Assembly (NCBI GenBank): GCA_963995525.1
Contig: OZ023210.1
Span: 28,585,249 to 28,649,248, forward strand
Direction of reading: 5' to 3'
DNA: 64,000 bases
From: Escarpia spicata
Taxonomy: Eukaryota > Annelida > Polychaeta > Sabellida > Siboglinidae
This document shows positions 25,201 to 28,200 of this stretch, one piece after another. How positions within the stretch are numbered: position 1 is the first letter of the stretch; every line of letters starts with the position of its first letter. The notes beneath the pieces were generated by a model, which saw nothing but the letters and a program-made list of their open reading frames with translations, did not search any database and had not been told where the DNA came from. A program made the position numbers and the translations under genes.

Positions 25201-28200
25201 GTCACATATCTCTTGCTACTAACCAGCATATGTGAACCAGCAGATATGATTACATTAAGTGGATTAAGTAGATTATTATTTAATTTAAGTATCTGCAGTT
25301 GTTTTTACCCAAGAACGAGACTTTGAAGTGTGCAGAGCTTAAAGCACACCTAGCGATAAACATTTCTACAATCCACTGTTTCATGGTGCATTTCTATCAA
25401 ACGTTGCCATACGTACTTAGACTATTTGAATAAAGGTTCCTTTGACATTTAAATGATAGTTAAATGAAGTGTTAAGTGAGGATGATATCACAAGGATCCT
25501 GCCATCTCTACACCTACCCACATCTGTGCACGTAGTCTTCGTAGTGATTTGGACAGTCATAGTTGACAACAAGAATGAGTTCTTTGACATCGAGTCCACG
25601 AGCTGCCACAGATGTGGCCACCTACAACAGAACATAATGTCATTGCGGGGTCAAGATGCATTGCTATCGGTCTACTCAAAATAAACACCTGTGTCAACTT
25701 GCACAAATTTAAATCTACTACTCTGCCTCAAATGTAAAAATTCACACAAAAATAATATAATAAATGGGAGATGTTTGTATCAATATTTCATGATTTGGAG
25801 ACTTGTCATATATTTCACTTTATGTATTAGTTTATATATTAATATGAAGTATGAATCTAATGACTTATGCATTCGTTGAATCCATGGATGTGATCAGAGA
25901 TGGTGCTATGTACCAACAGTTTGATGTTGCCAGACCTGAAGTCAGACATGGTGCTACGTACCAACAGTTTGATGTTGCCAGACCTGAAGTCAGACATGGT
26001 GCTACGTACCAACAGTTTGATGTTGCCAGACTTGAAGTCAGAGATGGTGCTACGTACCAACAGTTTGATGTTGCCAGACTTGAAGTCAGACATGGTGCTA
26101 CGTACCAACAGTTTGATGTTGCCAGACTTGAAGTCAGAGATGGTGCTACGTACCAACAGTTTGATGTTGCCAGACCTGAAGTCAGACATGGTGCTACGTA
26201 CCAACAGTTTGATGTTGCCAGACCTGAAGTCAGACATGGTGCTACGTACCAACAGTTTGATGTTGCCAGACCTGAAGTCAGACATGGTGCTACGTACCAA
26301 CAGTTTGATGTTGCCAGACTTGAAGTCAGAGATGGTGCTGTCCCTGTCGTACTGGTCGATGCCCCCGTGGAGGGCCAGACAGGGGTAGGAGTGACGCATC
26401 AGGTCTTTCATCAGGTCGTCAGCGTGTTCCTGTTTGTCCACAAACACCAGCACACTGCCGCCCTCCTGGTAGATCCCCAGCAGCTCCAGCAACTTGAAGA
26501 ACTTGTCATCCTCCTCTATCACCACCTATAAACACCATCCATCACTACTAGAACTTGTCATCCTCCTCTATTACTACCTACAAACACCATCCATCACTAC
26601 AAGAACTTGTCATCCTCCTCTATTACTACCTACAAACACCATCCATCACTGCTAGAACTTGTCATCCTCCTCTATCACCACCTACAAACACCATCCATCA
26701 CTACTAGAACTTGTCATCCTCCTCTATCACTATCTACAAACACCATCCATCACTACTAGAACTTGTCATCCTCCTCTATCACCACCTATAAACAACATCA
26801 ATCACTACTAGAACTTGTCATCCTCCTCTATATCTATCTACAAACACCATCCATTACTACTAGAACTTGTCATCCTCCTCTATCACTACCTACAAACACC
26901 ATCCATCACTACTAGAACTTGTCATCCTCCTCTATCACTACCTACAAACACCATCCATCACTACTAGAACTTGTCATCCTCCTCTATCACTACCTACAAA
27001 CACCATCCATCACTACTAGAAGAACTTGTCATCCTCCTCTATCACTACCTACAAACACCATCCATCACTACTAGAAGAACTTGTCATTCTCCTCTATCAC
27101 TACCTACAAACACCATCCATCACTACTAGAAGAACTTGTCATCCTCCTCTATCACTACCTACAAACACCATCCATCACTACTACAAGAACTTGTCACTCT
27201 CCTCTATCACTACCTACAAACACCATCCATCACTACTAGAAGAACTTGTCATCCTCCTCTATAACCACCTACAAACACCATCCATCACTACTAGAAGAAC
27301 TTGTCATCCTCCTCTATCACCACCTACAAACACCATCCATCACTACTAGAACTTGTCATCCTCGTCTATCACTACCAACAAACACCATCCATCACTACTA
27401 GAAGAACTTGTCATCCTCCTTTATCACTACCTACAAACACCATCCATCACTACTAGAAGAACTTGTCGTCCTCCTCTATCACCACCTACAAACACCATCC
27501 ATCACTACTAGAAGAACTTGTCGTCCTCCTCTATCACTACTTAGAAAAACCATACAATACTACTAGAAGAACTTGTCACTCTCCTCTATCACTACCTACA
27601 AACACCATCCATCACTACTAGAAGAACTTGTCATCCTCCTCTATCACCACCTACAAACACCATCCATCACTACTAGAAGAACTTGTCATCCTCCTCTATC
27701 ACCACCTACAAACACCATCCATCACTACTAGAAGAACTTGTCATCCTCCTCTATCACCACCTACAAACACCATCCATCACTACTAGAAGAACTTGTCATC
27801 CTCCTCTATCACCACCTACAAACACCATCCATCACTACTAGAAGAACTTGTCATCCTCCTCTATCACCACCTACAAACACCATCCATCACTACTAGAAGA
27901 ACTTGTTGTCCTCTTCTATCTATCTGCATCAAACATTGCATCTATCACTACTATTAACGAAACAGCAGCAAGAACATTTGACACTGGAATCGCTCATCAC
28001 TGGTGACTGATGCCCTAACCACTATATCACTGGTGACTGATGCTTTAACCAGTACATCACTGGTTACTGGTGCTTTAATCAGTACATCACTGGTGACTGA
28101 TGCCCCAACCACTACATCACTGGTGACTGATGCCCTAACCACTATATCACTGGTGACTGATGCCCTAACCATTACATCACTGGTGACTGATGTTCTAACC

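Follow-up and report, generated by a model that had tools for sequence, protein, structure and literature searches.

Minisatellite-like arrays across splice sites at both ends of one DDX46 exon and in the neighbouring CCDC57 gene of the tubeworm Escarpia spicata

Minisatellite-like duplications of exon/intron boundaries are known from amphioxus as "mirages" and have been described in Adh3, troponin C, the globin genes BflGb6 and BflGb9, and PGBD5 (PMC3087553, PMC3902484). The troponin C and PGBD5 cases were added in PMC3902484, the PGBD5 mirage being imperfect, while the Adh3 case goes back to Canestro et al. (2002), as cited in both papers. The unit is 10-72 bp long in Adh3 and 150-160 bp in the globin genes (PMC3087553), and regular splicing is reportedly left undisturbed by the mirages (PMC3087553, PMC3902484). 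Internal tandem repeats at exon-intron boundaries were also reported in human genes of segmental duplications (PMC2812944). According to the model of Rogers, as cited in PMC3087553, additional splice signals arise when a duplication spans an intron-exon boundary.

Among the matches listed from the CC-licensed PMC set, none describes boundary minisatellites from siboglinids or any other annelid group (the term "mirages" being queried only in combination), and none reports mirages outside cephalochordates. The excerpted text of the Ridgeia genome paper uses TRF and does not contain the term "minisatellite" (PMC9921365). An intronic minisatellite is described in earthworm metallothionein genes (PMC12783039), and a minisatellite near alternative splicing in C. 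elegans (PMC4039745).

Here we describe three arrays founded on exon boundaries in two genes within a 64,000-nt stretch of the E. spicata genome (GCA_963995525.1, contig OZ023210.1, positions 28,585,249 to 28,649,248; hereafter, the window). Both donor and acceptor ends are represented. The coordinates of the arrays and of the relevant exons are collected in Table 1.

Table 1. Splice-site arrays and associated exons in the window (a slash marks the exon/intron junction)
Feature	Position	Strand	Basis
DDX46 donor-side array, nine full 48-bp units and a 14-nt partial unit	25894..26339	-	TRF, unit parse, sequence
Nine DDX46 donor hexamers spaced 48 bp apart, GTACGT (26297-26292) being the first and GTACAT (25913-25908) the last	25908..26297	-	sequence
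Predicted DDX46 exon of 76 codons, phase 0 at both ends	26298..26525	-	tblastn with L. satsuma DDX46, translation
DDX46 acceptor-side array of exon 26298..26525, with the exon start copied 26 times upstream	26492..27920	-	TRF, sequence
Next DDX46 exon (motif V), its acceptor would fit any of the nine donors	25518..25621	-	sequence, tblastn
Previous DDX46 exon, donor GTT/GTATGT, phase 0	29071..29235	-	tblastn
Coding part of CCDC57 exon 2, its start taken from the tblastn match	2559..2693	+	tblastn, sequence
Donor-side array of CCDC57 exon 2, 48 units (66 bp each)	2662..5818	+	TRF, sequence

The minus-strand gene codes for DDX46. Over the full length of the 667-aa query, its joined product is 97% identical to DDX46 of the siboglinid annelid Lamellibrachia satsuma, the next best match being that of Lingula (82%). 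Most of the DDX46 exons were mapped by tblastn using the L. satsuma protein, which also places the junction to the next exon at LL/VATS. DDX46 was the top match in a search of solved structures with the exon under study and its successor. This junction lies just before helicase motif V; DDX46/Prp5 is the branch-site helicase. The neighbouring plus-strand gene is CCDC57, with 39% identity to a Saccoglossus CCDC57-like protein over the whole query and exons located by tblastn; it was named by protein similarity, and all three matches in a Pfam scan of this coiled-coil gene fell under the curated cut-offs. No tRNA was found by a tRNA scan, and Pfam had no match for another five ORFs or fragments. 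A minus-strand ORF at 63493-63678 has an Ephrin_rec_like match above the Pfam cut-off.

The limits of the predicted DDX46 exon are its exon-proximal acceptor and exon-proximal donor. Past its own donor the exon is followed by eight further 48-bp copies, the partial copy and then unique intron sequence (9.3 copies with 97% match according to TRF). The unit consists of the last 42 nt of the exon and the donor hexamer. The last exon bases at the nine donors are 26298, 26250, 26202, 26154, 26106, 26058, 26010, 25962, and 25914; the junction reads TTG/GTACGT in eight of them and TTG/GTACAT in the last one (25914), so that GT is kept in 9/9 units. Each of the nine donors is in phase 0. The exon frame stays open through the array to 25860, giving an ORF of 222 aa. 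Each step to a more distal donor would add 16 residues, i.e., from one to eight extra copies of the repeat peptide VRST[MI]SDF[RK]SGNIKLL.

This anatomy agrees in most respects with the original prediction, which had the array growing from the donor end of the DDX46 exon, with nine in-phase donors 48 bp apart, that at 26298 among them (eight GTACGT and one GTACAT), a frame open on the coding strand throughout, 16 more residues per donor step inserted just before motif V, and an acceptor at 25621, where the next exon begins. The array itself stands, with its limits refined from 25892..26345 to 25894-26339 by TRF. Two interleaved unit types had been claimed, whereas we count three. The units vary at three sites (ATC/ATG, AAG/AGG, and CGT/CAT), the two located in the exon part defining types that are arranged along the array as A B B B A C A B B. 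All three variants alter an amino acid; there is no apparent sign of constraint at the protein level, three sites being very few.

Scored with a human matrix, the GTACGT donor reaches 1.66; the 11 authentic donors of DDX46 that were placed by eye range from -0.92 to 7.31. Since the eight GTACGT donors are identical, a choice among them must rest on position or exon context.

The original prediction was silent on the other two arrays. One of them flanks the opposite end of the same exon. Each copy comprises about 28-30 nt from the beginning of the exon, preceded by the acceptor, and the unit length is 52 or 55 bp, neither of which is divisible by 3. Besides the authentic acceptor at 26525, the TGTTT[GA]TAG sequence is kept in 23 out of the 26 upstream copies. 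With reading from phase 0, a stop is reached 9 or 10 codons past every one of these 23 upstream acceptors. The proximal acceptor is as pyrimidine-poor as its copies (0.40 of 15 nt, with 0.40 to 0.87 in 12 other DDX46 acceptors). Taken together, 24 near-identical acceptors and nine donors flanking this exon make 216 possible exons.

The third array is located at the donor end of CCDC57 exon 2, which ends with ...HGLTPNYDIS at the exon-proximal donor. Its 66-bp unit is made of about 32 nt of the exon end, the donor and intron sequence. GT is kept in 47 of the 48 units (28 GTAAGT, 13 GTGAGT, and six GTAAAT, the last being a weaker donor), and the remaining unit has GGGAGT. There are 42 in-frame stops in the array. 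As the first of them (2727) precedes the second donor, whose last exon-copy base is 2759, every distal CCDC57 donor gives a premature stop.

Since early stops follow from the 23 upstream DDX46 acceptors and from all distal CCDC57 donors, an intact protein needs the proximal site in both of these arrays. For the DDX46 donor array, proximal use as in its two sisters would be the simplest reading. Judging by the sequence, donor 26298 and acceptor 26525 are most likely the ones used in DDX46, and the protein is most probably unchanged by the arrays at the exon edges. Our main reading, to which we assign a probability of about 0.8, is that the three arrays are boundary-spanning minisatellites of the "mirage" type, with the proximal DDX46 pair being spliced and the rest removed as intron. 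Two observations count against it: the eight GTACGT donors do not differ from one another, and the proximal acceptor shares its low pyrimidine content with the copies. An exon-proximity rule for duplicated splice sites was reportedly formulated by Reed and Maniatis in 1986.

Alternatively, distal donors could be used to produce a ladder of DDX46 proteins with one to eight extra peptide copies ahead of motif V, which might tune the branch-site helicase. The fully open array with nine phase 0 donors fits this idea, and with eight identical donors there is no site-intrinsic preference for the first one, making some leakage to distal sites plausible. However, openness follows from the unit length of 48 being divisible by 3, with 42 of the 48 nt being exon sequence in its own frame, so it does not count as independent evidence. 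Neither of the sister arrays permits distal use together with an intact protein. The DDX46 gene model of L. satsuma has no insert at this junction, though this species may lack the array and its model may then say nothing about splicing across it. No protein with the insert was found at E <= 0.001 among the 7997 candidates scored, those that share most words. The strand leading into motif V in this essential helicase would be split by an insertion at this place. We consider such a ladder improbable. Treated as a coding minisatellite, the array has an open frame and no insert-bearing protein among the 7997 candidates; the open frame is real, and the reading as a coding array is weak. Of the two outcomes originally proposed, the first donor winning is favoured by the stops in the sister arrays and by the lack of an insert in the L. 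satsuma model and in the protein search, whereas the isoform ladder is unsupported. An assembly or sequencing artefact multiplying a single exon end would be another explanation, as tandem repeats are prone to assembly error (PMC6868369). It appears very improbable: the unit variants are interleaved along the DDX46 array, the window has many other minisatellites with different units, and arrays of similar build are present at the other end of the exon and in CCDC57.

The main reading suggests the following course of events. A short segment comprising the last 42 nt of the DDX46 exon and the donor would have been duplicated and then expanded through unequal exchange or slippage, with similar events occurring independently at the acceptor of the exon and in CCDC57. 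One intact exon edge would be left after expansion, keeping the gene functional. The spliceosome would take the exon-proximal pair (acceptor 26525 and donor 26298) and the remaining copies would leave as intron. The donor array is then expected to be mostly neutral, its open frame being a 1-in-3 accident of the unit length, and its allele length is probably variable; by analogy with amphioxus, length alleles are plausible.

It is also conceivable that splice boundaries are preferred founding sites, e.g., through transcription- or splicing-coupled breaks, and that boundary minisatellites are widespread in the genomes of these worms. For the random placement test, 15 arrays were picked from 51 TRF rows by merging overlapping rows and dropping simple and low-copy repeats (the dropped arrays include 6624-6712, 37376-37470, 47613-47674, and 57513-57661). 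Both ends of 30 exons were used (60 ends, gene ends included), some of them being approximate to a few bases and exon 47000-47040 being a placeholder. Three of the 15 arrays are boundary-founded, with 0.47 expected by random placement, and at least three were obtained in 0.9% of 20000 trials. For the 10 genic arrays, placed within genic sequence, the corresponding values are 0.56 and 1.3%. Arrays at both ends of one exon appeared in 0.9% (window) or 1.4% (genic) of trials. These figures come from a single window and a post hoc test, with approximate limits of some exons and low-copy arrays excluded; they are a hint of boundary preference, not proof.

Exon-edge origin of six other arrays was checked in seven comparisons with nearby exon regions, using one internal unit of each array; three positive controls passed. 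Five of the seven comparisons showed no similarity to the neighbouring exon and the matching two stop short of the splice site, which speaks against a preference for boundaries and leads us to reject exon-edge origin for these six arrays. One of the two matches is that of a 21-bp array (32740-33099), whose degenerate end reaches within 9 nt of DDX46 donor 33108 without including it; its score against the donor region was matched in 0/300 shuffles. The other, an 88-bp array near acceptor 17724, shows marginal similarity (P about 0.027) and does not span the splice site. Overall, preferential founding at splice boundaries seems doubtful to us. L. satsuma is a vestimentiferan tubeworm, and a broader speculation, which we hold equally tentatively, is that vestimentiferans independently gained a lancelet-like habit, with minisatellites nucleating at splice sites genome-wide, core-gene exons carrying dozens of near-identical competing sites resolved by exon proximity, and occasional leakage giving in-phase isoforms as well as raw material for new introns.

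Several other repeats were noted in the window. A 32-bp array of about 114 copies (21570-25220) occupies the greater part of a DDX46 intron and showed no similarity to the flanking exon regions in two comparisons. Another DDX46 intron has two pairs of perfect (100%) direct repeats, 34149-34388 and 41682-41921 (240 bp), and 41265-41686 and 42133-42554 (422 bp), which suggests a recent mobile-element insertion within 34149-42554. An 18-bp repeat (25.7 copies, 60250-60712) would read RRSRSS in one minus-strand frame and may be either a coding minisatellite or a chance occurrence.

The DDX46 exon constitutes a natural test of spliceosome choice among identical sites, each of the 23 upstream acceptors being expected to break the protein. 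The gene carrying these splice-site arrays itself codes for the branch-site helicase, DDX46/Prp5.

As in the amphioxus mirages, the tubeworm unit spans the exon/intron boundary at either donor or acceptor ends, its length (48, 52/55, and 66 bp) is within the reported range, many units keep the splice signals (9/9 DDX46 donors, 23/26 upstream acceptors, and 47/48 CCDC57 donors), and an intact protein is compatible with the array given proximal-site use. Unlike the mirages, found in cephalochordates, the present arrays have an annelid host, which is a matter of where they were seen and not of their anatomy; one exon has arrays at both ends, and there are up to 48 copies. The human boundary repeats are likewise of minisatellite type and can alter splicing (PMC2812944), but they are found in recently duplicated primate genes and have transcript evidence, in contrast to the arrays of DDX46 and CCDC57 seen in sequence. 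In agreement with the Rogers model, duplication of the boundary provides extra splice signals; in distinction from it, no new intron is evident, the copies being most likely inside an old one. The tubeworm arrays can thus be assigned to a known kind, the "mirage", in what is, as far as we have seen, a new phylum, with both ends of one exon affected and a sister array in the next gene. The occurrence of "mirage"-type arrays in a second phylum means that those of lancelets may not be peculiar to one lineage.
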